Below are positions 18,332 through 53,578 of a DNA stretch of 64,000 bases, one piece after another. The position numbers and the translations under genes are program-made. The stretch comes from Arcobacter caeni (lineage in GTDB: Bacteria; Campylobacterota; Campylobacteria; Campylobacterales; Arcobacteraceae), in contig NZ_MUXE01000002.1 of assembly GCF_003063245.1 (NCBI RefSeq), positions 62,001 to 126,000 of the forward strand. The letters are read 5' to 3'. The notes beneath the pieces are model-generated. The model was not told the DNA's origin, ran no database searches, and was given only the letters and a program-made list of their open reading frames with translations. Each line of letters starts with the position of its first letter. Positions within the stretch are counted from its first letter, which is position 1.

Positions 18332-19021
18332 TTATTTAGCTTTTGGGTCTTCTATTTTATTTGGGTAACAGAATCTATAACCTCTTCTTCTGATTGTTTC
18401 AATAGTAGAAATATTCAATGGTTTATCCATTTTTTGTCTAATTTGATTAATCGCAACTTCAATTACATTTGGAGTAACTAATTCAGGTTCTTCCCAAATT
18501 GCATCAAGTAATTGTTCTTTTGAAACGATTTGGTCTCTGTGTCTTGCTAAGTGCGTTAAAACTTCAAAAGGTTTACCTTTTAATTCAATTTCTTCACCTG
18601 CATATTCAATTTTTTCTTCATCAGGATTGATTATTAAATCATCAATTTCTATGATATTTGTTCCACCAAATCTAAGTCTTGCTTCGATTCTAGCTAATAA
18701 AATATCAAAATCAAATGGTTTTTTAATAAAATCATCAGCACCTGATTTTAGTGCTTCAATTTCACTTTCTTTATCATCTCTTGCTGAGATAATAACAACA
18801 GCAGTTCTTGAACTTCTATTTTTAACTAATTTACATAGTTCAATTCCGTCACCATCTGGTAACATCCAATCAGTTAATACTAAATCGTAGTTTCTAATGT
18901 CGATAAAGTATTCAGCATCTTTATAATTTTCAGCTGTATCTACTTGATATCCAAAGTCTGAAAGACCTTCTTGTAGTGTTCTATTTAGTGTTATTTCGTC
19001 TTCAATAATCAAAATTCTCAT
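18332..19021 (-). CDS. OmpR/PhoB-type response regulator
   Basis: 229 residues: receiver domain with acidic pair E7-D8 and phosphorylation site D51 (DLVLTDWMLPDGDG), conserved KKPFDFDILLARIEARL, then a winged-helix DNA-binding domain ending ETIRRRGYRF. First gene of a two-gene unit with the histidine kinase. It is a second, weaker candidate for binding the 11-bp repeats found in the PQQ region. Confidence 0.93.
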   Translation of the reverse strand: MRILIIEDEITLNRTLQEGLSDFGYQVDTAENYKDAEYFIDIRNYDLVLTDWMLPDGDGIELCKLVKNRSSRTAVVIISARDDKESEIEALKSGADDFIKKPFDFDILLARIEARLRFGGTNIIEIDDLIINPDEEKIEYAGEEIELKGKPFEVLTHLARHRDQIVSKEQLLDAIWEEPELVTPNVIEVAINQIRQKMDKPLNISTIETIRRRGYRFCYPNKIEDPKAK

Positions 19022-25194: not shown

Positions 25195-25608
25195 TTATTG
25201 ATCTTGGTGTAAAGAAAGTAAATATGTTCTAATTGCCCACATAGCTTCTTGGTTTAAAACACCTTCAAATGGAGGCATATATACATTTCCATTTCTAACA
25301 GCACCTGTTCTAATTTTTTCCATAAACCATTCATCACCTTCTATACCTGGATCTAGATATCTTAAATCAGGTGCAATTCCACCAGAAACAGCTTCAAGCC
25401 CATGACATCTAGCACAGTTTTCTGTATATCCATGTTCACCAATTTCTCTTGCTTTTTCATTTCCTACATATGGATTTTTTTCTAACCATTCAGCTCCAAC
25501 TGGTGCTAAACCTTTTGTATCAACTGCTTGTGGAGTTACACTTCCATGTCCAAATGCGAATACTGTAGTTGTTAATACAGCTAAACCTAATTTTTGAATT
25601 TTATTCAT
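25195..25608 (-). CDS. pedF: cytochrome c-550 PedF
   Basis: 137 residues. Signal peptide (about 1-19), then the PedF-specific GHGSVTPQAVDTKGL, one heme c site C65-x-x-C68-H69 (NCARCHG) and a Met ligand in YMPPFEG. It accepts electrons from the PQQ alcohol dehydrogenase in the periplasm. First gene of a four-gene operon driven by a GCTATA-repeat promoter. Confidence 0.9.
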   Translation of the reverse strand: MNKIQKLGLAVLTTTVFAFGHGSVTPQAVDTKGLAPVGAEWLEKNPYVGNEKAREIGEHGYTENCARCHGLEAVSGGIAPDLRYLDPGIEGDEWFMEKIRTGAVRNGNVYMPPFEGVLNQEAMWAIRTYLLSLHQDQ

Positions 25609-25639: not shown

Positions 25640-25671
25640 ATTATAAACAGTTTTTATAGCCTGATTATAGC
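25640..25671 (-). promoter_or_regulatory. GCTATA-repeat promoter of the pedF operon
   Basis: On the minus strand two GCTATA elements lie 11 bp apart (25671-25666 and 25660-25655). A perfect -10, TATAAT (25645-25640), starts 15 bases after the start of the nearer element. The predicted leader is about 25 bases. No TTGACA-like -35, so an activator is expected. Confidence 0.75.
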
Positions 25672-25692: not shown

Positions 25693-25724
25693 GCTATATT
25701 AGGGCTATAAAATTGATATACAAT
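25693..25724 (+). promoter_or_regulatory. GCTATA-repeat promoter of the second ABC transporter operon
   Basis: GCTATA at 25693 and 25704 (11 bp apart) and -10 TACAAT at 25719-25724, 15 bases after the start of the nearer repeat. It is back to back with the pedF promoter. Confidence 0.75.
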
Positions 25725-28554: not shown

Positions 28555-28619
28555 AAATAAGTAATATTTTTTTCAAATAAAATTCCAATTAAGACTCAAT
28601 AAAATAATTTTTAACCCTT

Positions 28620-28695
28620 GCTATAATTAAGCTATGTAAAGGCTATAGATAGGCTATTTAAGGGCTATTCTAGGGCTATAACTCTGAAGTATAAT
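28620..28695 (+). promoter_or_regulatory. six-repeat GCTATA promoter of the porin gene
   Basis: GCTAT elements start at 28620, 28631, 28642, 28653, 28664 and 28675, an exact 11-bp period. A perfect -10 TATAAT (28690-28695) starts 15 bases after the start of the last element. This is the longest array in the window. The leader is about 50 bases. Confidence 0.8.
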
Positions 28696-28751
28696 AACGA
28701 ATGCGGAATTTATTCTGATTAAATTCTTGTAAAAATTATTAAGGACTAAAA

Positions 28752-29951
28752 ATGAAAAAACTAGGATTATTAAGTTTAGCAGCATCAATTGTTGTAAGCT
28801 CTGCTGTAGCTGCAAACATAGAATTAGCATCTGATTTAAAAGTTTCAGGAGATGCTCAAGTGCGAGGAATATCTGTAAAAGGTGATACTGATACTGTAAA
28901 AAAAGATAAACAAATACTTGATTCAGAAATAAATCTAAACTTAGATTTTACAACTTTAGAAAAAGTAAAAGTTCATACAGCAATCAAATTACAAAATGAT
29001 GCGTGGGGAGATAATTCAAATGATACATTTACATGGGAAGAAGCATATGTAACTGTTCCATTTAATGAAAATAAATTATTAATTGCAGGAAGAATAAACG
29101 ATACTTACGGAACACCTTTTTATGGCTCTAATGGGGATAAAATTGATTTAGCACTTTTAGGATATACACCTGTTGAAAATGTTTTATTATATGCTTTTGA
29201 TTTTAAAGCAGTTGAAGGTAAAAATGATGACCAAACTGCATTTTTTGGAGTAAATTCATCAGGTACAGGTGTTGGAGATTTTGATGCTTATGGATTAGGT
29301 GGTCAAGTTACAATTGATAAGTTATTAGTTGGTGGAAGATATGTTTATTTACAAAATAATACAGAAACATCAACAGCTTCAAATATTTATAATGATGCAA
29401 CAAGTCATATGTTTAATGCTTTTGCAATGGGAGAAGTTGCTGATTTAGATTTACAAGCACAAATAGAAAAAAGAATAGGTGATAGAACAAATTCATCTAT
29501 TGCAAAAAGTGATGAAAAAATGTTAGGAGCTTATTTAAAAGTTTCTAAAGAAATAAATGATTTTAATGTAGGAGTTGCTGGAGTTATGACAAAAGATGGA
29601 TATGTTTCAGGTGAAAATTTACCAGTTACTTATCTAACAAATGATGATTTAGGAACAGCTTCTTTAGATAGAGTTGGTTCTTATGGAGATACTTCATTAG
29701 TGGCTTTAAACTTTGCTTATGAAGCTACAAAAGATTTAACTCTTGAAGCAAATCTAGGATTACATAATATTAAAGATGCAACATTTGCGTCTATTGATAA
29801 AGATTTAAAAATCACAGAATATGACGCAGGATTAGCTTATAAACTTAATAAAAGCGCAATTGTTAGTTTAAGATATGCATTAGGTACTTTTGATGAAAGT
29901 AGCCTAGAAGATATGCAAACTATTGTAGCTGCTGTTAATATTGATTTCTAA
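28752..29951 (+). CDS. outer-membrane porin (Campylobacterota MOMP-like)
   Basis: 399 residues: signal peptide (1-20, cut after AVAA), then alternating beta-strand sequence rich in Asp, Asn and Gly ending in a terminal phenylalanine (AVNIDF), which is the usual barrel end. It probably lets small solutes such as alcohols into the periplasm. Its promoter carries six copies of the PQQ-regulon repeat, so strong co-induction with alcohol oxidation is inferred. Confidence 0.82.
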   Translation: MKKLGLLSLAASIVVSSAVAANIELASDLKVSGDAQVRGISVKGDTDTVKKDKQILDSEINLNLDFTTLEKVKVHTAIKLQNDAWGDNSNDTFTWEEAYVTVPFNENKLLIAGRINDTYGTPFYGSNGDKIDLALLGYTPVENVLLYAFDFKAVEGKNDDQTAFFGVNSSGTGVGDFDAYGLGGQVTIDKLLVGGRYVYLQNNTETSTASNIYNDATSHMFNAFAMGEVADLDLQAQIEKRIGDRTNSSIAKSDEKMLGAYLKVSKEINDFNVGVAGVMTKDGYVSGENLPVTYLTNDDLGTASLDRVGSYGDTSLVALNFAYEATKDLTLEANLGLHNIKDATFASIDKDLKITEYDAGLAYKLNKSAIVSLRYALGTFDESSLEDMQTIVAAVNIDF

Positions 29952-32393: not shown

Positions 32394-32864
32394 TCAATCT
32401 AAACTTTTAAGAATCAAACTCTTTAAAACCTCATTTATTGTATTTGCCATTTTATCACCATCTTTAAAAGCTTTGTATTTTTTGTATGAAACATAGATTG
32501 AATTATCACTATTTTTATAAATAGATATTCCAAGTGGGCAGTAGTTTATATTGTTAAAATTTTCTTCCAACATCTCAAAAGTAAAACTACTTTTACAAAT
32601 TCCTAGATTTATTCCTTTTTCTAAAACACCTTTTTTTTCAAGAAGAACAGCAACCTCATTTGTAGCTTTTGCGAGATTTAATTCATAAACTATTGTAAAA
32701 CCCTCAAAGTTTATTTCATCTTTTAAACTAAGTAATTTTTCATCAAAATTTGCTTTATCAACTTTTACGACAAATAAATTTTCACTTTCCGTTATTTCAT
32801 AGTTTGCTTTTAAAAAAGACAAAAATACAAAAGTGAGTAAAAAAATTTTATTCATTTTTTGCAT
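32394..32864 (-). CDS. DUF302 periplasmic protein
   Basis: 156 residues: signal peptide (about 1-20), then the DUF302 pattern (GFTIVYELNLAKA, LGICKSSFTFEMLE and NYCPLGISIYKNSD). DUF302 proteins often sit beside PQQ-dependent dehydrogenase and ABC genes; their activity is unknown. Its start overlaps the end of the binding-protein gene by 13 bases (the second Met would reduce this to 4), so it is co-transcribed from the GCTATA promoter at 34027-34058. Confidence 0.75.
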   Translation of the reverse strand: MQKMNKIFLLTFVFLSFLKANYEITESENLFVVKVDKANFDEKLLSLKDEINFEGFTIVYELNLAKATNEVAVLLEKKGVLEKGINLGICKSSFTFEMLEENFNNINYCPLGISIYKNSDNSIYVSYKKYKAFKDGDKMANTINEVLKSLILKSLD

Positions 32865-34000
32865 TCCATTTCATGTGGTGCAATTCCTAGTGTGTCCAAA
32901 TCAGTAATTGGGTGTAAAAATTCAACTTGTGGTGAAGTTGAAATTAAAGCTTTTGGTTGAACCAGTGAAATTGGAATTCTAATTTGACCATTATAATCTC
33001 TAAAAGAGAGTTTTCTTCCCATATAAGCTGCCACATCAAAATCATCTGAATAAATAAAATCAAGATTTGTTTTTAAATCAGCTGTGTTTGTTTTTGAAAT
33101 TGCTGTGATAATTGTTCTAACTGCTAACCAATTTGAATAATCCTTTGATTCCATCCATCTTGAAGCAAACTTTTCAAATCTACTTTGCATTTGAGCTGCG
33201 CCCCATTGTTCAATTACTTTATGCCATAAAACGGGAGTGAGTCCTTGAGTTCCTGCAACTGGTCTTGGAAGCCAAGAGTTAAAATATACAAATTCGCCAA
33301 AATCTCCATAATAATCAGCCAATAAAATCACATCATAATCTTTTGCTTGGGTAAATGCTGGAAATTCATCTGAGGCTTTTCTTCTAATATCGCTATTATT
33401 TTCCCAAGATTTTTCAGCAACTATTTTTGCTCCAAATTTTTTCGCTGCTCTTTTTATATCTTCTTTTATTAATAAATCTTTTGGATTTGTTCCATTAAGT
33501 AAAAGAATCTTTTTAAAATCTCTTTTTACTAAAAATTGCATCAAACCATCATAAAGCATTGCATTACTAGCACTTGTATGAAGTAAGTTTTTTTCACAAA
33601 TAGTTTTTCTAAGATTTGTATTTTCACTACTTGCATTTATTAATAAAACATCCTTTGAAAGTGGATTTTTTAGAAGTTTTTCTAAAAGTGAATCTTCAAC
33701 ATTTAAAATTACATATTGATTTTTGTTTTTTATAAACTCTTCAAAAGTAGAGATTAATTCATTTTCATCATAAGAAACTTTTGTTTCAAGGGTGAAGTTT
33801 TGATTTAAAAATTTCGCACTTTTATTGCTATCAATTATGGCAATTTGCGCTCCTTTTAATCCTAAATCAGTTGGTTCTTCTATTACATTAGATAAAACGG
33901 GTGGTTTTTCTATTTTTTGTTCTAAATATAAAATATTTACATTTAAAACATCAGCTTTTATAATACTTAATAAAAATAGTAAAGATAGGAATATTTTCAT
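32852..34000 (-). CDS. substrate-binding protein of the PQQ-alcohol-dehydrogenase-system ABC transporter
   Basis: 382 residues with signal peptide (about 1-16) and a periplasmic binding fold of the branched-chain amino-acid type: GAQIAIIDSN, LLINASSENTNLR, ILLLNGTNPKD, WLPRPVAGTQG and SFRDYNGQIRIPISLVQP. The last motif and the matching ATPase and permease genes (37075, 37802) mark the known 'PQQ-dependent alcohol dehydrogenase system' family. The transported compound is not established. Confidence 0.85.
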   Translation of the reverse strand: MKIFLSLLFLLSIIKADVLNVNILYLEQKIEKPPVLSNVIEEPTDLGLKGAQIAIIDSNKSAKFLNQNFTLETKVSYDENELISTFEEFIKNKNQYVILNVEDSLLEKLLKNPLSKDVLLINASSENTNLRKTICEKNLLHTSASNAMLYDGLMQFLVKRDFKKILLLNGTNPKDLLIKEDIKRAAKKFGAKIVAEKSWENNSDIRRKASDEFPAFTQAKDYDVILLADYYGDFGEFVYFNSWLPRPVAGTQGLTPVLWHKVIEQWGAAQMQSRFEKFASRWMESKDYSNWLAVRTIITAISKTNTADLKTNLDFIYSDDFDVAAYMGRKLSFRDYNGQIRIPISLVQPKALISTSPQVEFLHPITDLDTLGIAPHEMECKK

Positions 34001-34026: not shown

Positions 34027-34058
34027 ATTATATAAAATATTTATAGCTTGAGTTTAGC
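34027..34058 (-). promoter_or_regulatory. GCTATA-repeat promoter, minus direction (ABC binding protein)
   Basis: Minus-strand elements GCTAAA (34058-34053) and GCTATA (34047-34042), 11 bp apart; -10 TATAAT (34032-34027) starts 15 bases after the start of the nearer one. Leader about 20 bases. Confidence 0.75.
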
Positions 34059-34089
34059 AAAGGTGTCGCTAAACTCAAGCTATAAATAT
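34037..34089. repeat. perfect 22-bp inverted repeat formed by two opposed GCTATA promoters
   Basis: Arms 34037-34058 and 34068-34089 are exactly complementary, with a 9-base centre. It consists of the two back-to-back repeat pairs and lies in a divergent gap, so it is an operator rather than a terminator. Confidence 0.85.
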
Positions 34090-34124: not shown

Positions 34125-35087
34125 ATGAAGAAAAAGATTTTAACAGTTGCAGTTTTAACAAGCTCATTATTAGCAGATACTATTTATGTTTCAAATGAAA
34201 AAGACAATACTATATCTGTAATTGATTCAGTAACAAACAAAGTAACTGATACTATAAAAGTTGGTCAAAGACCAAGGGGAATATTATTGAATAATGATAA
34301 AACTCAATTATATATTTGTGCAAGTGATGATGACACGGTACAAGTATTAGATTTAAAATCAAAAAAGATTTTATATAATCTTCCCTCAGGTGAAGATCCA
34401 GAACAATTTGCTTTAACTCCTGATGGAAAAGAGTTATATATTTCAAATGAAGATGATGCAATTGTAACAGTTGTTGATACGATAAATAAAAGTGTAACAA
34501 GCCAAATAGAAGTTGGTGTTGAACCTGAGGGAATGGCTATAAGTCCAGATGGAAGTGTAGCTATTAATACAACTGAAACATCAAATTTTTTACATTGGAT
34601 TGATACAAAAACAAAGAAAATAATTCATACTACTTTGGTTGATCAAAGACCGAGACATATAGAATTCTCAAAAACAGGAGATAGAGTTTGGGCTTCAAGT
34701 GAAATAGGTGGAACTGTGATGATAGTTGATTCAACAACAAAAGAATCTATTGGTAAAGTTACATTTAAAATTCCTGGAGTTTTCAAAGATTTAATTCAAC
34801 CAGTTGGAATAAAATTAACATCAGATGGAAAATATGCTTTTATTGCACTTGGACCTGCTAATCATGTGGCTGTTGTTGATGCTAAAACATTTAAAGTTAT
34901 AAAATATTTATTAGTTGGAAAAAGAGTTTGGCAATTAGCTTTTGCGCAAAATGAATCAAAACTTTACACAACAAATGGTGTTAGTGGAGATGTTTCAATT
35001 ATTGATGTAAATGAGTTAAAAGTTGAAAAAACTATTAAAGTAGGTCGTTATCCTTGGGGCTTGGCTGTAATACCAAGTAATAAATAA
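34125..35087 (+). CDS. PQQ-associated YVTN beta-propeller protein
   Basis: 320 residues with signal peptide (about 1-17). Seven YVTN-type blades: IYVSNEKDNTISVIDSVTNK, LYICASDDDTVQVLDL, LYISNEDDAIVTVVDT and so on. It corresponds to the 'PQQ-dependent catabolism-associated beta-propeller' family encoded with the alcohol-system ABC transporter. Periplasmic; role unknown. First gene of an operon with the FIST chemoreceptor and the ABC ATPase and permease. Confidence 0.87.
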   Translation: MKKKILTVAVLTSSLLADTIYVSNEKDNTISVIDSVTNKVTDTIKVGQRPRGILLNNDKTQLYICASDDDTVQVLDLKSKKILYNLPSGEDPEQFALTPDGKELYISNEDDAIVTVVDTINKSVTSQIEVGVEPEGMAISPDGSVAINTTETSNFLHWIDTKTKKIIHTTLVDQRPRHIEFSKTGDRVWASSEIGGTVMIVDSTTKESIGKVTFKIPGVFKDLIQPVGIKLTSDGKYAFIALGPANHVAVVDAKTFKVIKYLLVGKRVWQLAFAQNESKLYTTNGVSGDVSIIDVNELKVEKTIKVGRYPWGLAVIPSNK

Positions 35088-35102: not shown

Positions 35103-37073
35103 ATGAACAACCCTCTTAAATATATTCGTATAGTTGATACAAAAGAGGCAAATTTAGAAAATGATATAAAATCACTATCAAATGATTTTAATACAAAATT
35201 AATATTGGGTTTTATTTCTCCCCATATTAATTTTGAGAATGTATCAAAAAAAATAAAATCGGCCTTTTCAAATGATGTAAAAATAGTATTAAGTTCAACC
35301 GCAGGTGAATTATGTACTTTTAATTTAGAACAAAAAAAAGATAATTTGTATAAAGATGCAAGTGGCGTGTGGGATAATATTGTATTACAAGCTTTTAGTG
35401 ATGAAATAATAGACCAAGTTGAAATCTTAACTATTCCACTGCACAGTGAAAATATAACAACTCAAACAATCTCACATAATCAAAGAATAGAAAAAATAAA
35501 AGATGAGATAGATAAACAAAAAATTCCATTTAAAATAAACCATGAAAATTGTTATGCACTTACTTTTGTGGATGGTTTATCAAATAGTGAAAGTTTTTTA
35601 ACAGAAGCTATTTATGCAAGTGGGAAATTACCTTGTTTGATTATTGGTGGAAGTGCTGGAGGGAAGTTCGATTTTAAAGAGACATTTATATTTAATAATG
35701 AACAAACTTTAAGACATAACGCAATAATTATTCTTACAAAATTAAAATCAAATATCAAATATGGAGTATTCAAATCTCAAAGTTGTGAAAAAACAAACTT
35801 GAGTTTTTTAGTTGCTCAATCAAATATGTTAAATAGAAGTGTTCAAAGTATATTAAATTCAAAGGGAAATAGAATTGTAAATTTTGTAGATGCCTTATGT
35901 TTTCACTTAAATTGTTCTTTGGAAAATTTAAAAACTGTATTAGCTGATTATACTTTTGCCATTGAAGTTGATGGAGAACTTTATATTAGGTCTGTTTCAA
36001 ATCTTGATATTGAAAATAAACAAATTTCATTTTTTTGTGATATTTCCTTTGGAGATTTATTATATTTAGTAAAAAATAAAGAGTTTGTTTCCCAAACTAA
36101 TATTGATTTTGCTAACTTTTCAGCAAGAAAAAAAACAAAACCAATTGGTGGAATATTAAATGATTGTATCTTACGAAGATTATTAAATACAGCAAACCTA
36201 AACTCTTTAAAAACTTTTAATGATATTCCCCTTGCTGGTTTTTCCACATTTGGAGAACTTTTAGGATTAAATATCAACCAAACTTTAACAGCACTATTTT
36301 TTTATGAAGTTGAGAATAAAAATGATTTTTATGATGAATATGTGGATAATTTTGTTCATAAATATGCAAAATTCAGTGGATATTTTATCCAAAGAGAAAT
36401 TCATAAATATCAACTAATAGCAAAAGTAAGAATGGCTGTAATAAATAGTTTAAAAGAGGCTTTTCCACTGATTAAAGATATGGTTGAAATTTTAAATTAT
36501 GTGTATGAAGATACAACTCAAACTAATAAATTAATTATACAAATGACAAAAAAATTTGAAAGTTTCTCAACAGATATTTTAAGTAATGTGCAAACAAATT
36601 CAATACTTGTAGGAAATATGGATAATTTAACAAAAAATGCAAGGGATACAAAACAAGTATTATCTTCAATATCAAGTATTGCAATTCAAACAAATCTCTT
36701 AGCCCTAAATGCTGCAATTGAAGCCTCAAGAGCAGGGGAGTTTGGAAATGGGTTTAAAGTTGTTGCTGATGAGGTGAAAAAATTAGCATCAAAAACACAA
36801 GTTAGTTTAAGTGATAGTAATCATTCAGTTGATGTAACAATAAAAAGTGTAGCTTCTATTTCAGAAGATATTAAAAATGCGAGTAAAAAATTATCAAATG
36901 TATCTTTAGATATGGAATTAATAAATGAAACTATAGGAAAAATACATGATAACTCAAATCATAGTAATGGTTTTATAGGAAATAAAAAAACAAGTTTTGA
37001 GAATCTAATTTCTAGTATGAATGTAATTGAAAAAATACAACAACAGTTAGAAATTCTAGAAAGTAATTTTTAA
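35103..37073 (+). CDS. soluble FIST-domain methyl-accepting chemotaxis protein
   Basis: 656 residues, no transmembrane helix. FIST N and C domains occupy about residues 20-430 ([49 protein letters not shown]). A chemoreceptor signalling hairpin is at about 480-600, with the conserved tip [23 protein letters not shown] domains are thought to bind small ligands in the cytoplasm. Placed between the propeller and the ABC ATPase genes, it probably steers the cell by alcohol or metabolite sensing; that is inference. The same sensor type occurs in the kinase at 51525. Confidence 0.88.
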
Positions 37074-37801: not shown

Positions 37802-38584
37802 ATGAAAAAATATATATATTGTATGAAAGGAATAGTTTATAAAGAACTAATCCGATTTTTAAAACAAAAAAGTAGATTTTTTTCTGCACTTGTGCGACCA
37901 CTCTTATGGTTGTTTATTTTTTCAGTTGGGTTTAAATCAGCTTTAGGTTTAGCAATAATTCCACCTTATGAGACATATATTACTTATGAAACATATATTG
38001 TTCCAGGACTTGTGGGAATGGTTTTACTTTTTAATGGAATGCAAAGCTCACTAACTATGATATTTGACCGTGAAATGGGAAGTATGAAAATACTTTTAAC
38101 TTCATATATAAATAGAAATTATCTTCTATTTTGTAAAATGTTTGCAACGGCCATAGTATCAACTTTACAAGCTCTTACTTTTTTAATAATTGCAAAAATT
38201 TATGGAGTTGAACTTTCAATTAGTGGAATACTTTTAACAATACCAATTATTATGATTTCATCAATAATTTTAAATGCTTTTGCACTTTTTATATCATCTG
38301 TTATTAAACAGTTGGAAAATTTTGCAACTGTTATGAATTTTGTGATTTTTCCTATGTTTTTTTTAAGTTCAGCTCTTTATCCCTTATGGAAAATAAAAGA
38401 TTCATCAATTTTGATTTTTAATATTTCATCTTTTAATCCATTTACACATATTGTAGAATCAATTCGTTTCTGTCTTTATGGTAAATTTGACTTAGAATTG
38501 TTTTTTATTTTAGGATTTTTATTCGTTATCAGCCTAATAATGGCCTTTGTAGGTTTTAAATCTAAGAAAATAAGTCATAGCTAA
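37802..38584 (+). CDS. ABC transporter permease, PQQ alcohol dehydrogenase system (PedC-like)
   Basis: 260 residues, six transmembrane helices, ABC-2 type: FLKQKSRFFSALVRPLLWL at the start, GMQSSLTMIFDREMGSMK in the cytoplasmic loop, and FFLSSALYPLWKI. ABC-2 permeases usually export. It is the last gene before exaA; a GCTATA element of the exaA promoter overlaps its final codons. Confidence 0.88.
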   Translation: MKKYIYCMKGIVYKELIRFLKQKSRFFSALVRPLLWLFIFSVGFKSALGLAIIPPYETYITYETYIVPGLVGMVLLFNGMQSSLTMIFDREMGSMKILLTSYINRNYLLFCKMFATAIVSTLQALTFLIIAKIYGVELSISGILLTIPIIMISSIILNAFALFISSVIKQLENFATVMNFVIFPMFFLSSALYPLWKIKDSSILIFNISSFNPFTHIVESIRFCLYGKFDLELFFILGFLFVISLIMAFVGFKSKKISHS

Positions 38585-38611
38585 ACTTAGGCTATATTTG
38601 TTATGTATACT
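38580..38611 (+). promoter_or_regulatory. GCTATA-repeat promoter of the quinoprotein alcohol dehydrogenase gene
   Basis: GCTAAA at 38580 and GCTATA at 38591, 11 bp apart; -10 TATACT (38606-38611) starts 15 bases after the start of the second. The first element spans the permease stop codon. Leader about 44 bases. Confidence 0.75.
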
Positions 38612-38661: not shown

Positions 38662-40446
38662 ATGATTAAAAAAAAGCTACTAACTAGTGCCGCGGCCGTT
38701 ACACTTTGTGCATTAATTAGCGCTTCTGCGAATAGTAACACAACTAAAGTTACAGAACCATCATACAATCCAGTTACATATAATGAGATTTTAAATGATG
38801 AAAAAACAACAAATGATGTTTTGACTTATGGTATGGGACAAAGAGGACAAAGATTTTCACCTTTAGAACAAATCAATAAAAAAACTATTAAAGATTTAGT
38901 TCCTGTATGGAATTTCTCTTTTGGTGGTGAAAAGCAAAGAGGGCAAGAGTCTCAACCGATTATTAAAGATGGTGTTATGTATGTAACTGCATCTTACTCA
39001 AGAGTTTTTGCTATTGATATAGCAACGGGTGAAGAGTTATGGCAATATGATGCAAAGTTACCTGATGCGATTTTACCATGTTGTGATGTTATAAATAGAG
39101 GTGTTGCAATTTATGATAATCTAGTAATTTTTGGAACACTTGATGCTAAATTAGTGGCACTTGATAGAAAAACTGGGAATGTAGTTTGGAAACAAAAAAT
39201 TGCAGATTATAAAGATGGTTATTCAATAACTGCTGCTCCACTTATTGTAAAAGATAAAATTATTACAGGTGTTGCTGGTGGTGAGTTTGGAATTGTTGGA
39301 AAAGTAGAAGCTAGAGATCCTAAAACTGGTGAAGTAGTTTGGACAAGACCAACTGTTGAAGGACATATGGGTTACCTAAATGGTAAAGAAAATGGAATTA
39401 CTGGTGGTGAAGCTGGTAAAACATGGCCTGGAGATTTATGGAAAAATGGTGGAGCTGCAACATGGCTTGGTGGAACATATGATCCTGAAACAAATTTAAT
39501 TTTTATGGGTACTGGAAATCCTGCTCCTTGGAATTCACATTTAAGACCAGGAGATAATTTATACTCTTCTTCAAGATTAGCGTTAAATCCAGATACTGGA
39601 GAAATAGTTTGGCATTTTCAATCTACTCCACATGATGGTTGGGATTTTGATGGTGTAAATGAATTAATTTCATTTGATTATAAAGATAAAGATGGGAAAA
39701 CTGTAAAAGCAGCAGCTACTGCTGATAGAAATGGATTCTTCTATGTCCTAAATAGAGAAAATGGTAAATTCATTACTGCCAATCCATTTGTTTCTAATAT
39801 TACATGGGCAAAAGGTATTGATAAAAATGGTAGACCTCTTTATATAGATGAAGCAAGACCTGGAAACCCAGGAGAAGAAAGTAAAGGAACATCAGTATTT
39901 GCAGTACCTGCCTTCTTGGGTGCTAAAAACTGGATGCCAATGGCATATTCTCAAAAAACAAAAAATTTCTATGTTCCATCTAATGAGTGGGGAATGGATA
40001 TTTGGAATCAACCTATTTCTTATAAAAAAGGTGCAGCATATTTAGGTGCAGGATTCACTATTAAACCAGTTTTTGAAGACCATATTGGTTCTTTAAAAGC
40101 AATTGAGCCATTAACTGGAAAAGTAAAATGGGAATATAAAAATCCTGCACCATTATGGGGTGGAGTTTTAACAACAGCTGGTGGCATTGTAATGACAGGA
40201 ACTCCTGAAGGAAAATTATTAGCATTTGATGATGAAACAGGTGAAATTTTATATAAATTCCAACTTGGATCAGGAATTGTTGGTTCTCCTGTTACTTGGG
40301 AACAAGATGGTGAACAATATATTGCAATCGTTTCAGGTTGGGGTGGAGCGGTTCCTTTATGGGGTGGTGAAGTTGCAAAACAGATTAAAAACATCAACCA
40401 AGGTGGAACGGTTCATGTATTTAAATTACACAAAACTAAAAAATAA
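38662..40446 (+). CDS. exaA: PQQ-dependent (quinoprotein) alcohol dehydrogenase
   Basis: 594 residues: signal peptide (about 1-23), then an eight-bladed propeller with tryptophan-docking motifs ([30 protein letters not shown]). C140-C141 form the vicinal disulfide over PQQ. Catalytic D328 lies in [12 protein letters not shown]330, two residues on, is the position that in XoxF, ExaF and PedH binds a lanthanide and is Ala or Ser in calcium enzymes such as MxaF. It oxidises ethanol-type alcohols in the periplasm and passes electrons to PedF. No fused heme domain. pqqA follows after 24 bases. Confidence 0.92.
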
Positions 40447-40668: not shown

Positions 40669-41580
40669 ATGAGAATAGAAATATTAGGTTCAAGTGCAGG
40701 GGGTGGACTTCCTCAGTTTAATTGCAATTGCCATAACTGTAAAGGTTATAGAGAGGGAAAAAGTACAATTAAAAGAAGAACACAAAGCTCAATAACTATT
40801 AGTGAAGATGGACAAAATTGGGTTTTATTTAATACTTCACCTGATATTTTAGAACAAATACATAATTCGCCATTTTTACATCCTAAAGAAAGAAGAGAAA
40901 CAAAAATAAAAGCGATAGTTTTTATTGATGCTCAAATTGACCATACCACAGGACTTTTGATGTTAAGAGAAGGTTGTCCTCATCCTGTTTATTGCACAAA
41001 AGAGGTTCAAGAAGAACTTAATACTTCTTTCCCTTTATTTAAAATGTTAGAACATTGGGATGGTGGTGGAACTATTTATAATGAAATAATTTTAAATAAA
41101 CCTTTTGAAATTCCTGTTATGCCAAACCATGAATTTTATGCAATGCCTTTGATTTCAAACGCACCTCCATATTCAAAATATAGAGATAAACCAAGAGATG
41201 GAGATAATATCGGAGTTATTGTAGTAAATAAAGAAACAGGAAAAAGACTTTTTTATCTTCCAGGACTTGGAGTATTACAAAAACATATTATTGAAGAGAT
41301 GGCAAAAGCTGATGTTTTATTAGTTGATGGGACATTATGGAGCAATGATGAGATGATAAAAAATGGTTTTTCAACAAAACTTGGAACTGATATGGGACAT
41401 TTACCTTTAAGTGATAAAGGTGGCTTAATTGAGCTTTTAGACAAGTTAGTACATCCACGAAAAATATTAATACATATAAATAATACAAATCCTATCTTAG
41501 ATGAATCAAGTCCTGAATATAAAGAACTTATATCTCACGGTATTGAAATATCTTATGATGGTATGTGTATAGAAATCTAA
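40669..41580 (+). CDS. pqqB: PQQ biosynthesis protein PqqB
   Basis: 303 residues of the metallo-beta-lactamase fold: [18 protein letters not shown] at the N-terminus (the family's extra zinc site), [17 protein letters not shown] and LVDGTLW. PqqB is known as an iron-dependent, O2-using hydroxylase of the tyrosine part of the PQQ precursor. First of pqqBCDE. Confidence 0.95.
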
Positions 41581-41609
41581 AAAATCAATCTAAATTAAAA
41601 GGAGAAAAG

Positions 41610-42320
41610 ATGCAAGAGGCTTATAGTAAAGAAGAGTTTGAATCAAAACTAAGAGATATGGGAAGAATGTATCATATTCATCACCCTTTTCATATAAGAA
41701 TGTACGAAGGTACTTGTACAAAAGAAGAGATTCAAGGTTGGGTTGCAAATAGATTTTATTATCAATGTATGATTCCAATTAAAGATGCAGCTATTATGTC
41801 AAATTGTCCCAGTTTAGTTGATAGAAGAAAATGGATTGATAGAATCACAGACCATGATAGTGTTGGTGGTGGAATCGAAGCTTGGTTGGAATTAGGCGAA
41901 GCTGTTGGATTAAATAAAGAGGATTTAGTTTCCCATAAATTTTTATTACCATCTGTAAAATTTGCTGTTGATGCTTATGTAAATTTTGCAAGACAAAGAC
42001 CTTGGAAAGAAGCTGCAATGTCATCTTTAACAGAGATGTTTGCACCTCAAATCCATCAACAAAGACTTAGCACTTGGCCTGATAATTACCCTTGGATTGA
42101 ACAAAAAGGTTTAAGATATTTCCAAAAAAGATTAAGTGAAGCAAGAAGAGATGTGCAACATGGTTTAGCTATTACTCTTGAAGAGTTTAATACAAGAGAA
42201 TTACAAGAAAAAGCTTTCTCGATTTTACAGTTTAAATTAGATATTTTATGGACAATTTGCGATGCTTTATATTTAGCCTATGAGTTAAAAAGACCACCAT
42301 ATTTTAATTGCGAGAAATAA
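41610..42320 (+). CDS. pqqC: PQQ synthase PqqC
   Basis: 236 residues from the ATG at 41610 (AAAGGAG ahead). Highly conserved: [51 protein letters not shown] and LQFKLDILW, covering the active-site Tyr, His, Arg and Lys residues known from Klebsiella PqqC. It performs the final ring closure and O2-dependent eight-electron oxidation. It is the canonical copy; a divergent second copy lies at 49639. Confidence 0.95.
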
Positions 42321-42321
42321 A

Positions 42322-42585
42322 ATGGAAAATAAAAAAATAAAACTAAATCCAAATTTCCAGTTTCAATGGGAAGAAAAACAAAACTGTTATGTATTACTTT
42401 ATCCAGAAGGTATGGTTCAATTAAACCAAAGTGCGGGAGAAATTTTAAATCTTTGTGACGGTGAAAAAGATGTTGAAGAGATAAATAAACTTTTATGTAA
42501 AAAATTTGAAATGCAAGATTTAACAGCTGATATAAATGCTTTTTTAGAAGAAGCACAAAATAGAAATTGGATACATTATGAATAA
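42322..42585 (+). CDS. pqqD: PqqA-binding chaperone PqqD
   Basis: 87 residues, RRE fold. QFQWEEKQNCYVLLYPEGMV and LNQSAGEILNLCDG are the PqqD hallmark segments. It presents PqqA to PqqE. Two bases after pqqC and overlapping pqqE by 8 bases. It is the only pqqD in the window, so it would have to serve both PqqE copies. Confidence 0.93.
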   Translation: MENKKIKLNPNFQFQWEEKQNCYVLLYPEGMVQLNQSAGEILNLCDGEKDVEEINKLLCKKFEMQDLTADINAFLEEAQNRNWIHYE

Positions 42586-43678
42586 TGAAATAAAACCACC
42601 GTTATGGATTCTTTTAGAATTAACACACAAATGCCCTTTGGAGTGTGCATATTGTTATAACCAACTTGATTTTGCAAATACAAAAGATGTTATGAGCAAA
42701 GAAGATTGGTTTAGAGTGATGGAGCAAGCACGAGATATGGGAGCTGTTCAATTAGGAATTAGTGGAGGAGAACCTTTATTAAACAAAGATGTAGTTGAAA
42801 TTGTAAGAAAAGCAAATGATTTAAAATTTTATACAAATCTTATAACTTCAGGAGTTGGTGCTCCAAAAGGTGTTGTTGCAAAACTAAAAGAGGCTGGTCT
42901 TAAAACAGTGCAATTAGGTATTCAATCACATGATAAAAACACTATGACTTTGATTACAAATAATAAAAGTGCCTATGATGAAAAAATTGCCTTTGCAAAA
43001 GAGATAAAAGAAGCAGGACTTCAATTAATCGTAAATACTTGTATAACTAGACAAAATATCCATCAAGTTGGAGAAATTATCGAGTTTGCTGAAAGTTTAG
43101 GGGCAAATTATTTAGAGATTGCAAATATCCAGTATTATGGTTGGGCACTAAAAAATGTAAATGCCTTACTTCCATCACAAGAGCAAATCACAAAAGCTAG
43201 AGAAGTTACAAAATATTACAGAGAACAAAGAAAAGATATGAAAGTATTTTTTGTAGTTCCTGATTATTTTGCAACAAGACCAAAAGCCTGTATGAATGGA
43301 TGGGGAACAACATTTTTAACTATAAACCCTGATGGTGTAGCACTTCCTTGTAATACTGCAAATACTCTACCACTTACATTTCCAAATGTAAAAGAGTTTT
43401 CAATAAAAGAAATATGGAATGAATCAAAAGCATTTAATTATTTCAGAGGTGATTCCTGGATGCAAGAACCGTGTAGAACTTGTGATGAAAAAGAGAAAGA
43501 TTTTGGAGGATGCCGATGCCAAGCATTTGCCCTAACAGGCGATATGAATGCAACTGATCCTGTGTGTATAAAATCACCAAATCATGGTGTAATAAATAAA
43601 AAAATAGAAGATAGCATGATTTTTTCAGAAGATAAAATTATTCATAGAAATAGATTAAACTCTTTAACTTTTATGTAA
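42578..43678 (+). CDS. pqqE: radical SAM PqqA Glu-Tyr cyclase PqqE
   Basis: 366 residues. C19-x3-C23-x2-C26 (KCPLECAYCY) for the SAM cluster; SPASM auxiliary-cluster cysteines in PKACMNGWG, LPCNTANT, EPCRTCDEKEKDFGGCRC and DPVC. It links the Glu gamma carbon and Tyr ring of PqqA. Very similar to the second copy at 46507. Confidence 0.95.
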   Translation: MNNEIKPPLWILLELTHKCPLECAYCYNQLDFANTKDVMSKEDWFRVMEQARDMGAVQLGISGGEPLLNKDVVEIVRKANDLKFYTNLITSGVGAPKGVVAKLKEAGLKTVQLGIQSHDKNTMTLITNNKSAYDEKIAFAKEIKEAGLQLIVNTCITRQNIHQVGEIIEFAESLGANYLEIANIQYYGWALKNVNALLPSQEQITKAREVTKYYREQRKDMKVFFVVPDYFATRPKACMNGWGTTFLTINPDGVALPCNTANTLPLTFPNVKEFSIKEIWNESKAFNYFRGDSWMQEPCRTCDEKEKDFGGCRCQAFALTGDMNATDPVCIKSPNHGVINKKIEDSMIFSEDKIIHRNRLNSLTFM

Positions 43679-45602: not shown

Positions 45603-46520
45603 TTATAATATGTATGTTAAATATTTATTATATTTTAAAGTATTTCCATAAATTAAATTAAAATATGCCTTTTGTATTTTCTTTGTGATTTTTCCTGTTT
45701 GTGAATTATTTATAACTCTATTGTCAATTTCATAAAAAGGTGTAATCTCAGCAGCTGTTCCTGTAGAAAAAGCTTCGTCACAAATGTATACTTCATCTCT
45801 TGTAATATTTCTTCTTCGAACTTTAATACCCATATTTTTAGCTAATTTTATAACTGTATCTTGTGTAATTGATTCTAGTGAATTATCATTTGGTGGAGTA
45901 ATTAAAGTTTTATTTCTTACCATAAAAAAACATTCTCCACTAGCTTCTGCAATAAATCCATTGTCATCTAATAATAAAGCTACATCATATCCACAATCTA
46001 AAGCTTCTTTTTTTGACATTTGAGAGTTTAAATAATTTGATACAGCTTTTGCTTTTGACATGGTTGAATTAATAGAATTTCTTCTAAAAGATGATATTTT
46101 TGCTTTTATACCAGTTTTTAATCCATCTTTATCGATAAGACTACTCCATTCCCAAGCGATAATAGAAAATCTTACTTTGCATTCACTTGGTAATATTCCT
46201 AAATTTCCATCTGCATAATAAATAATAGGTCTTATATAAATATTATTTTTAAATTCATTTTTTTTAATAAGAGTTACAATTGCATCTTTAATTTCCTTAT
46301 ATGAATAAGGACTATCAATCATTACTATTTTTGCAGAATCTAATAATCTTTTTATATGTTTTTTAAGCCTAAATATTGCTAAACCATTTTTTGTTTTATA
46401 TGCTCTGATACCTTCAAAAACACCATTTCCATAATGTAATGTATGAGTTGTTATATGAATATTTGCATCTTCCCATTTTAAAAGTTTGCCATCCATCCAT
46501 ATATATTTAGCAGTTTGCAT
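45603..46520 (-). CDS. class IV aminotransferase (branched-chain-type)
   Basis: 305 residues from the ATG at 46520 (a TTG at 46532 is possible). It resembles IlvE: HTLHYGNGVFEGIRAYKT, the PLP lysine in SKAKAVSNYLNS, AEASGECFFMV and DEAFSTGTAAEITP. It is placed between pqqE2 and U32 copy A with a 14-base overlap, so it is probably not the housekeeping IlvE. What it transaminates in a quinone-cofactor setting is unknown; PqqE-type chemistry does not require it. Confidence 0.82.
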   Translation of the reverse strand: MQTAKYIWMDGKLLKWEDANIHITTHTLHYGNGVFEGIRAYKTKNGLAIFRLKKHIKRLLDSAKIVMIDSPYSYKEIKDAIVTLIKKNEFKNNIYIRPIIYYADGNLGILPSECKVRFSIIAWEWSSLIDKDGLKTGIKAKISSFRRNSINSTMSKAKAVSNYLNSQMSKKEALDCGYDVALLLDDNGFIAEASGECFFMVRNKTLITPPNDNSLESITQDTVIKLAKNMGIKVRRRNITRDEVYICDEAFSTGTAAEITPFYEIDNRVINNSQTGKITKKIQKAYFNLIYGNTLKYNKYLTYIL

Positions 46521-47634
46521 GATTTTTGCCAATAAAATTAATAGAATTATTTCTATTTCTATAAATTAATCCATCATTTGATGTTTCTAGTGCTCTATTT
46601 ATAGTGTCTGTTATTATATTATGATGTTGTGATTTTTCACATACAGGATCAGTTGCATTCATATCATTTGTTAGTGCAAAGGCTTGGCATCTGCATCCTC
46701 CAAAATCTTTTTCTTTTTCATTACAAGTTCTACAAGGCTCGCTCATCCAAGAATCACCTCTGAAATAATTAAAAGAATTTGATCTATTCCAAATCTCTTC
46801 TAAAGAATAATCTTTTACATTTGGAAATTTAAGAGGAAGAGTATTTGCCATATTACATGGAAGAGCATCTCCTTCTGGGTTTATAGTTAAAAAAGTAGTT
46901 CCCCAACCATTCATACAAGCTTTTGGTCTTACTTCATAATAATCTGGTACAACAAAATATACTTTCATTTTATTGTTTTTATTTTCTCTGTAAGTGTGGG
47001 TTATTTTTCTTGCTTTTTCAATTTGTTCTTTTGAGGGTAATAATTTATCTATATTTTCTAATGCCCAACCATAATATTGAACATTTGCTAATTCTAAATA
47101 ATTTGCCCCTACATCATTTGCATATTCAATTATTTTATCAACATGGTCAATATTTAGCTTATGAATGGTTGAGTTAATAATTAGTTGAATACCTTCTTTT
47201 TTAACTTCTTTTATAAAATTTTGTTTTTGCTCGTAGGCTGTTTTATTATTAGTAAGTAATGTAATTATATCTTTATCATGAGATTGAATACCAATTTGAA
47301 CTGTTTTTAAACCAGCTTCTTTTAATTTTTGAACAATTCCAATAGGAGCACTTACTCCTGATGTGATTAAATTTGTATAAAATCCTAAATCATTGGCTTT
47401 TTTAACCAATTCAGGTAAATCCTTATTTAATAAAGGTTCTCCACCTGAAAAACCAATCTGAACAGCTCCCATTTCTCTTGCTTGTTCCATTACTCTAAAC
47501 CAATCTTCTTTTTGCATTTTGTCATCAATCTTTGCAAAATCAAGTTGATTGTAACAATAAGGACATTCTAAAGGACATTTATGAGTTAATTCTAACAATA
47601 TCCATAATGGTGGTTTGGTTTTAATTTCATTCAT
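46507..47634 (-). CDS. pqqE: second PqqE-type radical SAM enzyme
   Basis: 375 residues, clearly paralogous to the pqqE at 42578, with C20-x3-C24-x2-C27 (KCPLECPYCY) and all auxiliary-cluster cysteines kept (KACMNGWG, LPCNMANT, EPCRTCNEKEKDFGGCRC, DPVC). The C-terminal tail is longer and different, ending in NHANC. All catalytic parts are intact, so it should still crosslink PqqA or a similar peptide. It overlaps the upstream U32 gene by 4 bases. No second pqqA or pqqD is nearby. Confidence 0.9.
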   Translation of the reverse strand: MNEIKTKPPLWILLELTHKCPLECPYCYNQLDFAKIDDKMQKEDWFRVMEQAREMGAVQIGFSGGEPLLNKDLPELVKKANDLGFYTNLITSGVSAPIGIVQKLKEAGLKTVQIGIQSHDKDIITLLTNNKTAYEQKQNFIKEVKKEGIQLIINSTIHKLNIDHVDKIIEYANDVGANYLELANVQYYGWALENIDKLLPSKEQIEKARKITHTYRENKNNKMKVYFVVPDYYEVRPKACMNGWGTTFLTINPEGDALPCNMANTLPLKFPNVKDYSLEEIWNRSNSFNYFRGDSWMSEPCRTCNEKEKDFGGCRCQAFALTNDMNATDPVCEKSQHHNIITDTINRALETSNDGLIYRNRNNSINFIGKNHANC

Positions 47635-49518: not shown

Positions 49519-49545
49519 TTTAAACTCCAATAATAAATTTATCAA

Positions 49546-49577
49546 ACTTTACTGAAATTTTATAGCGTAAATATAGC
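49546..49577 (-). promoter_or_regulatory. GCTATA-repeat promoter of the U32/pqqE2 operon
   Basis: Minus-strand GCTATA at 49577-49572 and 49566-49561, 11 bp apart; -10-like TAAAGT (49551-49546) starts 15 bases after the start of the nearer one. The -10 is weak (4 of 6). Confidence 0.65.
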
Positions 49578-49607
49578 TATATTTGAGCTATAAAAATCTA
49601 GTAAAAT
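49576..49607 (+). promoter_or_regulatory. GCTATA-repeat promoter of the second pqqC gene
   Basis: GCTATA at 49576 and 49587, 11 bp apart; -10 TAAAAT (49602-49607) starts 15 bases after the start of the second. Its first element overlaps the outermost element of the opposite promoter by 2 bases (TATAGCTATA). Confidence 0.7.
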
Positions 49608-50868: not shown

Positions 50869-51528
50869 CTATTCAGGTCTTTCTATCATATATCCGCTTC
50901 CTCTAATATTTTTTATAAAATCCTCTTTTAATACAGTTTTTACTCTATTAACTTCAGCTCTAATAGTTGCATTATCAATATAATCATCATTCCAAACATA
51001 CTCTCTAAACATATCATATTGCACAACTAAACTTCTATTTAGAGCTAAAAGTTCTATTATTTGAAGTTGTCTTTTTGGCAAAATATGAGGTTCATTATTA
51101 AATAATAGAGTCATATTTTCAGAATCGAAACTATAATGTTTTGATAATCTTTTATGCCTTTGAGGAACTATTCTTGTTTTTAAAATTTTATTAATTCTTA
51201 AAGTTAATTCTTTTAAATGAAATGGCTTTTTCAAATAATCAAAACAACCTAAATCAAAAGCCCTTGAAATATCTTCAATATCAATAAGTGCTGAAATATA
51301 AATAGTTGGAATCATTCTTTTTTGTTCATGCATTTTTTCTAAAATAGTAAAACCATCAATATCTGGAAGATTTATATCTAAAATCAATAAATCAAATTTT
51401 TCTTTTTCTAAAATATCCAACGATTCACTACCTGTTTTTACACTTTTTATTGCATGTCCTGTTGAAATGATATATTCTGTTATCATTTCATTTAGCATAA
51501 CATCGTCTTCTACTAATAATATTTTCAT
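50869..51528 (-). CDS. OmpR/PhoB-type response regulator, candidate PQQ-regulon controller
   Basis: 219 residues: receiver domain with E7-D8-D9 and phosphorylation site D51 (DLLILDINLPDIDG), KKPFHLKELTLRINK, then a winged helix with LLALNRSLVVQYDMFREYVW and a DNA-recognition end VLKEDFIKNIRGSGYMI. It overlaps the FIST kinase gene by 4 bases. PhoB-class proteins bind 11-bp direct repeats. This gene lies in the middle of nine promoters with 11-bp GCTATA repeats, so it is the best candidate to bind them; inference. Confidence 0.9.
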   Translation of the reverse strand: MKILLVEDDVMLNEMITEYIISTGHAIKSVKTGSESLDILEKEKFDLLILDINLPDIDGFTILEKMHEQKRMIPTIYISALIDIEDISRAFDLGCFDYLKKPFHLKELTLRINKILKTRIVPQRHKRLSKHYSFDSENMTLLFNNEPHILPKRQLQIIELLALNRSLVVQYDMFREYVWNDDYIDNATIRAEVNRVKTVLKEDFIKNIRGSGYMIERPE

Positions 51529-53432
51529 AATATTTCCTTAAATGTATATGTGAATGAAGCCCAATTTTTACCTGATTCTAGTTTTATTCCAACATTTTCT
51601 TCGCTACAAATTCTTTTTACTAAATTTAGTCCAAGACCAAAGCCATCTTTTGAAACTTCTTCTCTATAATATTCTTCAAATATTTTTTGAGGATCTAGAA
51701 TTTGAGCAGATTTACTTTCTACAATAAAATCACAATTGTTATTTAGTAATTCTAATTTTATATTTATAATTTCATTTGGAAGAGTATATTTTATTGCATT
51801 TGTTAAATTATTATCTATAATTCTTTGAAGTTTTGTTTCATTGAAATTTAATATAATTTTATGTTTAGAGCTTTTAAATTTAAATTCAGATTTTACTTTT
51901 AGTGCAGAAGATGAAAAAAAATCTATTCTAGCTCTTATAAAATCAACTAAATCTATTTTATGTGATGCTTGGTTTACTTGATCTTTTTTTACTAAATAAC
52001 TCAAATCATCATAAATACTAAAAATATTTTTCATAGCAACTTCAATATTAGATAGATATTTATTTTTCCCAAATTCCATTTCAAACATTTCAATATTTCC
52101 CATAATTACAGATAAGGGAGTATTTGTTTCATGAACAGCATGTTTTAAAAACTGTTTTTGAGAAGTTATTAAATTTTGAGCATAAATATTACCTTCTTCA
52201 AGCTCTTTGGATTGAATATTATAATCAGTAGAGGATTGTTGTATTAAGTGTGTTAATGCTTGTAAACTTTTTGCATGATCACTTAATTTTGTATTTTCAT
52301 TTTCATGTATTGCGTCAGGTTGTGTAGTTGTTTGTTCTTGTTCACTTAAGGCTAATATAGTTAGTGTTTGATTTAAAAGTTCATTTTTCCCTTTATTATG
52401 ATAAAACTCCCCATAGGTAAAAAAACCAGCAGTTGACGCAATTTTTGAAAAAGGTTTTATTTCTATATTTATTAAATCAGGCATATATCTTCGTCTTGCC
52501 ATACATGCATATATAAAAAAAGTTTCTGTATCTTTTATATAACCTTTTGTAAATAAGGACTTCAAAGGATTATTCATAATTAATTCAACATTTCCAAATC
52601 CTAGTTTTACAATATCTCCTTTGTGAAGATTTCCTGCAAAACTTAAACTTCCATCTTCATGTTTTGCAATAACTGCTCTTGCAATTGGAATTTTATTTTT
52701 TTGTACAATTAATGGAAATTCAATTCCGGTTGCAGGAAGTGAACTAGCTACATAAGTACCTAAGTATTTTTCGTAAAAATCTAAAGGAGTAAGTCCTGAA
52801 ATTTTATAAACTCTATTTCCCTCAACCTCTTCAATTTCATGCTCAATTCCAATAGGTGACCAATTAAAATTATAGGCATTAGTAACTTTTAAAGATGTTG
52901 AGTTCAAAGAAACTCCAACTGCTCCTTGTGTTAATATTTTATTTTGACAAGAAATAAATGTTTGCATAAAATCAGCATTATCACCGGCCATTCCACCACA
53001 TACAATTATTTTATCATTGATTGAGCTAATTCCATTTAAAAATTCTTCACCATTTGTTTTTTCTCCATCTGTAAATGTAATTAATAGTTTGGTTTCTTCA
53101 CTACAAAGTGCTGAGGCTAATTTTACACCATTTGAAAAAGAGTCAATTTCATCTACTGAAACGATTTTTAATGTGGTTTTTTCAAATATAGAAATTGCAA
53201 CCACTGTATTTAATGTAGTAATTTGCGAATCATTTATTTCCCCATCTGTCGATGAACCTATACAAATAGCTTGTGGTAACTCTTTTGCGATTACATTTAA
53301 GATATATTCTAAAATATCTTTTTTTTCTCCACAAAATATTTGGATTAATAAATTTTTCTCATTCTTAAAAATAGAGAAATCTATTATTCTTTCGATTGGT
53401 TTTTGATTTAGTGTGTAATTAAATGTTTTCAT
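51525..53432 (-). CDS. soluble FIST-domain histidine kinase
   Basis: 635 residues, no transmembrane helix. FIST N domain about 25-215 (ICIGSSTDGEIND, LLITFTDGEKTNGEEFL, IIVCGGMAGDNADF) and FIST C about 215-345 (ARAVIAKHEDGSLSFAGNLH). Phosphoacceptor box HAVHETNTPLSV (H434), N-box NNLTNAIKYTLP and GFGLGLNLVKR. It detects a cytoplasmic ligand of unknown identity and pairs with the regulator downstream. FIST-type sensor kinases are known in Pseudomonas alcohol-oxidation control. Confidence 0.9.
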   Translation of the reverse strand: MKTFNYTLNQKPIERIIDFSIFKNEKNLLIQIFCGEKKDILEYILNVIAKELPQAICIGSSTDGEINDSQITTLNTVVAISIFEKTTLKIVSVDEIDSFSNGVKLASALCSEETKLLITFTDGEKTNGEEFLNGISSINDKIIVCGGMAGDNADFMQTFISCQNKILTQGAVGVSLNSTSLKVTNAYNFNWSPIGIEHEIEEVEGNRVYKISGLTPLDFYEKYLGTYVASSLPATGIEFPLIVQKNKIPIARAVIAKHEDGSLSFAGNLHKGDIVKLGFGNVELIMNNPLKSLFTKGYIKDTETFFIYACMARRRYMPDLINIEIKPFSKIASTAGFFTYGEFYHNKGKNELLNQTLTILALSEQEQTTTQPDAIHENENTKLSDHAKSLQALTHLIQQSSTDYNIQSKELEEGNIYAQNLITSQKQFLKHAVHETNTPLSVIMGNIEMFEMEFGKNKYLSNIEVAMKNIFSIYDDLSYLVKKDQVNQASHKIDLVDFIRARIDFFSSSALKVKSEFKFKSSKHKIILNFNETKLQRIIDNNLTNAIKYTLPNEIINIKLELLNNNCDFIVESKSAQILDPQKIFEEYYREEVSKDGFGLGLNLVKRICSEENVGIKLESGKNWASFTYTFKEIL

Positions 53433-53524: not shown

Positions 53525-53578
53525 GCTATACTCATGCTATACTATAGCTTTATTCACGCTATACTTCTCGTGTAGAAT
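53525..53578 (+). promoter_or_regulatory. four-repeat GCTATA promoter of the aldehyde dehydrogenase gene
   Basis: GCTATA at 53525 and 53536, GCTTTA at 53547, GCTATA at 53558: exact 11-bp period. -10 TAGAAT (53573-53578) starts 15 bases after the start of the last. Leader about 67 bases. Confidence 0.78.

Follow-up and report, generated by a model that had tools for sequence, protein, structure and literature searches.

A conserved six-box GCTAT array ahead of a porin-type gene in Arcobacter caeni as a probable activator-dependent promoter of an alcohol/PQQ regulon

The window analysed here, a 64,000-nucleotide stretch of Arcobacter caeni DNA, contains genes of alcohol oxidation and of PQQ synthesis, a two-component system with a FIST-domain histidine kinase, and a porin-type gene preceded by a block of short direct repeats (Table 1). 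A sequence-only reading had described this block as six GCTAT elements with an unbroken 11-bp period before a perfect TATAAT, and that description is borne out at 28620-28695, where all six boxes are exact and the period is exactly 11 bp throughout. A −35 element is absent, the best match to TTGACA at 16–18 bp from the −10 element agreeing at 2 of 6 positions. An A/T tract of the AATAATTTT type lies ∼16–19 bp 5′ of the first box (28603-28612); 8 of 8 orthologous promoters keep it, including those with a different gene upstream, and it is possibly an UP-like element. The porin mRNA leader (28696-28751) is also strongly conserved in eight species. A hairpin in this leader was considered and rejected, since the predicted structure is weak (6 pairs) and is accompanied by no compensatory change.

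The window porin protein has no Pfam match even at an E value of 10 and only a weak NCBIfam porin match below the cut-off, and its N-terminus carries a stretch that looks signal-like by eye. The structure model was unusable (mean pLDDT 28.7). The orthologue in another genus (G091), which is 47% identical to the window protein, passes the Pfam Porin_4 model with 34.7 bits against a cut-off of 27. The earlier suggestion that regulator sites of an alcohol-oxidation regulon stand before a porin-type gene looks correct.

Nine promoters in the window share a common layout of box, 6 bp, box, 10 bp and TAnnnT. They were found in a scan that allowed one mismatch per pair and returned 15 rows, the other six being sub-windows of the arrays or chance matches, and all nine sit before genes of alcohol oxidation or its surroundings. 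Two boxes are the rule. As had been stated for the regulon outside the porin promoter, the number is two or four: seven promoters have two boxes (GCTAA as the first box in three of them), and the aldehyde dehydrogenase promoter has four, an array that is also kept in other genera. The region at ∼25210-25600, toward which one of the divergent pairs points, probably encodes a small c-type cytochrome, judged by eye. The two opposed pairs at 49562-49591 overlap by two bases (central ATAGCTAT), so that simultaneous occupancy of both promoters is hardly possible; the same two-base overlap is present in G018 (contig C75) and G023 (contig C79). The alcohol cluster also encodes another FIST/NosP-like protein as a fusion to a chemoreceptor signalling domain (35103-37073), and PQQ genes are duplicated within one cluster, two different genes scoring above the cut-off for PqqE (42578-43678 and 46507-47634) and a further two above that for PqqC (41565-42320 and 49639-50373). 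A search of the open-licence literature found no description of this regulon or motif.

Table 1. Features of the window that bear on the porin promoter and the alcohol/PQQ regulon.
Feature	Position	Strand	Details
Two boxes	25656..25671	-	N10, TATAAT; divergent, toward putative small c-type cytochrome ∼25600-25210
Two boxes	25693..25708	+	N10, TACAAT; before NMT1/SsuA-like ABC operon from 25753
Six GCTAT boxes	28620..28679	+	Starts 28620, 28631, 28642, 28653, 28664, 28675
−10 element TATAAT	28690..28695	+	10 bp past sixth box
Porin-type gene	28752..29951	+	399-aa ORF, start 56 bp past TATAAT
Two boxes (GCTAA, GCTAT)	34043..34058	-	N10, TATAAT; before PQQ_ABC_bind gene 32852-34000
Two boxes (GCTAA, GCTAT)	34068..34083	+	N10, TAGAAT; before beta-propeller gene 34125-35087
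Two boxes (GCTAA, GCTAT)	38580..38595	+	N10, TATACT; before PQQ alcohol dehydrogenase 38662-40446
Two boxes	49562..49577	-	N10, TAAAGT; before U32-peptidase-like gene 48601-49545
Two boxes	49576..49591	+	N10, TAAAAT; before pqqC-like gene 49639-50373
OmpR/PhoB-family response regulator, proposed box binder	50869..51528	-	
FIST-domain histidine kinase, proposed partner	51525..53432	-	FIST portion NosP-like, fused to HisKA/HATPase
Four-box array (third box GCTTT)	53525..53562	+	N10, TAGAAT 53573-53578; aldehyde dehydrogenase 53652-55148

The boxes are far more frequent than expected by chance. The window has 10 occurrences of GCTAT-N6-GCTAT where 0.07 are expected (100 shuffles, in which the largest count was 1), and these runs comprise 10 pairs, four overlapping triples, all from the porin array, and one sextuple. 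By comparison, 300 first-order Markov sequences of 64 kb, read on both strands, gave 23 pairs, no triples and no sextuples in total. An origin of the array by chance or as a low-complexity repeat is ruled out by the shuffles and the Markov sequences. The whole 2.4-Mb genome contains 17 exact GCTAT pairs, and its only exact triples are the four inside the porin array. Long runs are also uncommon in an order-wide sample, where at least four exact boxes in a row were present in 8 of 398 genomes.

Porin matches are encoded in 15 of 104 genomes of the family. Nine of these belong to the same genus group (the Aliarcobacter group) and are 77–88% identical to the window protein, or are the window protein itself; eight of the nine have a readable promoter, the contig of G018 ending at the gene start. 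All eight readable promoters have the six box positions at an 11-bp period, and in all eight the distance from the last box to the −10 element is exactly 10 bp, the element being TATAAT, or TATGAT in one. Of 240 box letters 239 match GCTAT, the exception being box 5 of G023 (GCTAC). Invariant columns number 29 of 30 in the boxes and 9 of 30 in the spacers (Fisher p=6e-8, with columns treated as independent), and the mean pairwise difference among the eight promoters is 0.8% in the boxes compared with 31% in the spacers and 64% in the N10 before the −10 element. The array and all six of its box positions are under selection, since the boxes stay while the spacers diverge, and repeat expansion as the sole account is rejected for the same reason.

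Outside this group the porin promoter is shorter. The orthologues from another genus (G057 and G060, 61–62% identical) and that from a third (G091) each carry a single box pair, 10 bp upstream of a −10-like hexamer; the matches in G087, G089 and G095 are partial and their promoters were left out of the comparison. The simplest reading is that a two-box porin promoter was extended to six in the Aliarcobacter lineage. These two-box orthologues, together with the two visible boxes at every other regulon promoter except that of aldehyde dehydrogenase, lend some support to a model in which activation comes from the promoter-proximal pair only, the four boxes farther upstream being either neutral remnants of repeat expansion or a sink for titrating the regulator. 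However, all six positions are equally invariant in the eight species against spacers that have diverged as described above, which argues against the idea that only the last two repeats matter, and a sink would need neither the exact 11-bp phase nor the fixed number. We consider this model unlikely.

The number of boxes was also tallied in the fetched loci. Arrays at N10 from a −10-like hexamer comprised 43 with two boxes, 10 with four, 7 with six and 1 with three, once 5 three-box runs and 1 four-box run that form part of longer arrays had been removed; the scan misses the G023 porin array, owing to its variant fifth box. We do not propose that the number of boxes must be even, since the sixes represent one orthologous promoter and nine of the ten fours a second one, and arrays of five boxes are known elsewhere. 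Two further long arrays were observed in another genus, one of six boxes including one GCTAC (L148, 3459-3518) and one of two plus four boxes (L149, 3790-3859). Each is flanked on one side by a porin-like gene other than the one studied here and on the other by a small exported protein, with no −10 element at 10 bp.

The likeliest binder of the boxes appears to be the OmpR-type regulator encoded beside the FIST-domain kinase, between the pqq genes and aldehyde dehydrogenase. The kinase has a NosP-like NCBIfam match below the cut-off. With an orthologue defined by a best E value below 1e-85 (the remaining genomes reach ∼1e-72 or weaker), the regulator is present in 62 of 104 family genomes. The strict pattern GCTATN5GGCTATAN9TANNNT was found in 36 of the 104, all of them among the 62 with the regulator and none among the 42 without it, and this distribution is the ground for proposing the regulator as the binder; within the genus, a box-pair promoter is present in 12 of 14 genomes with the regulator and in 0 of 17 without. 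In both comparisons the genomes share ancestry and are not independent, and against the assignment the strict pattern is lacking in 26 of the 62 regulator-bearing genomes. Of the 26 genomes with exact triple arrays, 25 have the regulator orthologue; in the remaining one (G085) the array consists of T-preceded boxes and lies before an apparent acetate-permease operon. The kinase adjoins the regulator in 29 of 30 fetched regulator loci, the thirtieth beginning at a contig end. A genome from another family of the same order (G349) has the same kinase-regulator pair (55% and 63% identical), divergent from a five-box GCTAT array (L146, 6218-6266) that precedes aldehyde-oxidoreductase-like genes and has no −10 element at 10 bp. 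Two other candidates were rejected: a second OmpR-type regulator in the window (18332-19021) is present in 29 of 31 genus genomes, a distribution that does not follow that of the boxes, and the PQQ alcohol dehydrogenase is the poorer correlate, being present in 27 of the 36 pair-carrying genomes compared with 36 of 36 for the regulator.

The same genome encodes a paralogous kinase-regulator pair (L147, contig C59 of G000, 62001-80000), the regulator of which is 54% identical to the FIST-linked one. Its neighbours, which we take from their sequences to be acetate-permease-like, acetate kinase-like and phosphotransacetylase-like genes, suggest that it probably governs a related regulon for acetate, in which the alcohol pathway ends. 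A TGCTAT-type pair lies before the phosphotransacetylase-like gene near the paralogous regulator. The two regulators have almost the same putative DNA-contacting helix, which would explain the common GCTAT core, and together with the T-preceded boxes at acetate-type genes this makes cross-binding by the paralogue possible. It could be argued, then, that the paralogue or another OmpR-type regulator uses the porin array, alone or jointly, given this helix and the GCTAT pairs and arrays at phosphotransacetylase-like and acetate-permease-like genes. We regard this as quite improbable, because the boxes that the paralogue seems to use have T rather than G before the core and its near relatives (∼54% identical) are found in nearly all genus members, unlike the porin array and the GGCTATA pairs. 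The base flanking the box may separate the sites of the two regulators (GGCTATA versus TGCTAT).

The arrangement of the porin promoter resembles that of class II promoters of the OmpR/PhoB family: the repeat block is fixed relative to the −10 element and takes the place of the −35 element, the direct repeats are spaced by 11 bp, and a regulator with receiver and Trans_reg_C domains is encoded with a histidine kinase. The PHO box consists of two 11-nt direct repeat units that are bound head-to-tail, and PhoB contacts sigma-70 (PMC4415409); the direct repeats of ArcA are likewise 11 bp centre-to-centre (PMC3798270). The spacing of the boxes equals this half-site spacing, which supports an OmpR/PhoB-type binder. 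We consider it likely that the array is a class II activator-dependent porin promoter of the alcohol/PQQ regulon, with the FIST-linked OmpR/PhoB-type regulator as the activator. The kinase would drive the response regulator, each GCTAT would serve as the half-site for one DNA-binding domain, and two neighbouring boxes at 11 bp would hold one head-to-tail dimer, making the six-box array a set of three putative head-to-tail dimer sites. The promoter-proximal dimer would cover the −35 position and, at 10 bp from the −10 element, be placed to contact sigma-70, like PhoB at the pho box, while the two upstream dimers would stabilize it and give higher, probably steeper induction than at two-box promoters. 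The fixed 10-bp spacing and the missing −35 element (best TTGACA match 3 of 6 at 16–18 bp among the porin promoters of the eight species) fit recruitment of sigma-70. The least credible alternative is a repressor or anti-silencer platform whose regulator oligomers would block RNA polymerase or remove a nucleoid protein instead of recruiting sigma-70, as ArcA, which has similar repeats, represses or counter-silences (PMC3798270), but ArcA sites float, whereas every regulon promoter keeps 10 bp to the −10 element and the porin promoters have no −35 element.

Regulator binding, activation, cooperativity and the inducing signal are inferred here, as is steep porin induction through three regulator dimers. 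The precedents of ArcA and Streptomyces PhoP point to cooperative loading of the array. The E. coli ArcA sites described in PMC3798270 have two repeats plus one to three extra, cooperative occupancy is proposed with on-off behaviour at some promoters, and some sites with two to five 11-bp repeats are filled over a narrow concentration range. The PHO boxes of Streptomyces PhoP are built of 11-nt units, and that of pitH2 has four core plus two ancillary units over ∼64 nt that are occupied stepwise (PMC7866108). Against automatic cooperativity, the KdpE DNA-binding domain is described as binding two half-sites independently (PMC3264566). The very high or switch-like porin expression put forward in the sequence-only reading is plausible as a prediction. 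The filament-like loading put forward there goes beyond the evidence, since three head-to-tail dimers of the OmpR/PhoB type account for the geometry.

Runs of as many as six tandem 11-bp repeats are already known for Streptomyces PhoP, those of E. coli ArcA reach five, and CTATA repeats are known from Sulfurospirillum PceP; the array belongs to a known kind of arrangement and is unusual in its regularity and length. Like Streptomyces PhoP, the proposed binder is an OmpR/PhoB-family regulator with tandem 11-nt units, up to six; in contrast to the units of PhoP, which vary in quality (core and ancillary), the six cores here are identical, and the array lies directly upstream of the −10 element with its number conserved across species. 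It differs from ArcA sites, which float relative to the promoter, in being locked 10 bp upstream of the −10 element. In the Campylobacterota, the OmpR-type regulator PceP has three CTATA/CTATW repeats with 6-nt gaps that overlap the −35 region, activation is proposed, and its closest outside relative is noted in Arcobacter (PMC7755780). The core letters CTATA and the 6-nt gaps are shared, but PceP has three repeats and an organohalide regulon, whereas there are two, four or six boxes, an alcohol regulon and a FIST kinase here. The PceP dimer site is proposed as CTATW-N17-CTATW, which leaves the middle repeat for sigma (PMC7755780), and the half-site assignment here could thus differ by one repeat. 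Most promoters here have just two boxes at 11 bp, which favours the 11-bp half-site reading over N17.

Regulation of the EnvZ/OmpR type does not describe the locus, as orthology to OmpR and to OmpF/OmpC was not found: the OmpR model gives the regulator 80.2 bits, with a cut-off of 331, and the window porin has no detectable Pfam porin similarity. OmpR acts at ompF and ompC through several upstream boxes of different affinity. Both E. coli porin genes are under this OmpR-family regulator (PMC3798270). The Pseudomonas ped/exa cluster includes PQQ alcohol dehydrogenases, the porin PP_2662 and a NosP protein beside a histidine kinase (PMC12997753), but its local regulators are LuxR-type (AgmR and PedR2), whereas here the regulator is OmpR-type and the FIST domain is fused to the kinase.

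More tentatively, box number could be a selected gain setting, with two, four and six boxes providing one, two and three dimer sites for one regulator. The Aliarcobacter porin promoter would have gone from two to six boxes and then been held there, which would give it a contiguous assembly of three dimers locked to RNA polymerase and the steepest response in the regulon. Either way, the regulon offers a natural promoter series of the same layout, where a single response regulator is presumed to have one, two or three dimer sites and the effect of site number on the strength and steepness of induction should be measurable without redesign. The analysis may also help to re-read the PceP CTATW-N17-CTATW site as 11-bp half-sites. 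For the Arcobacteraceae, a binding word and a likely regulator are now proposed for a previously unstudied FIST-kinase two-component system of alcohol oxidation.
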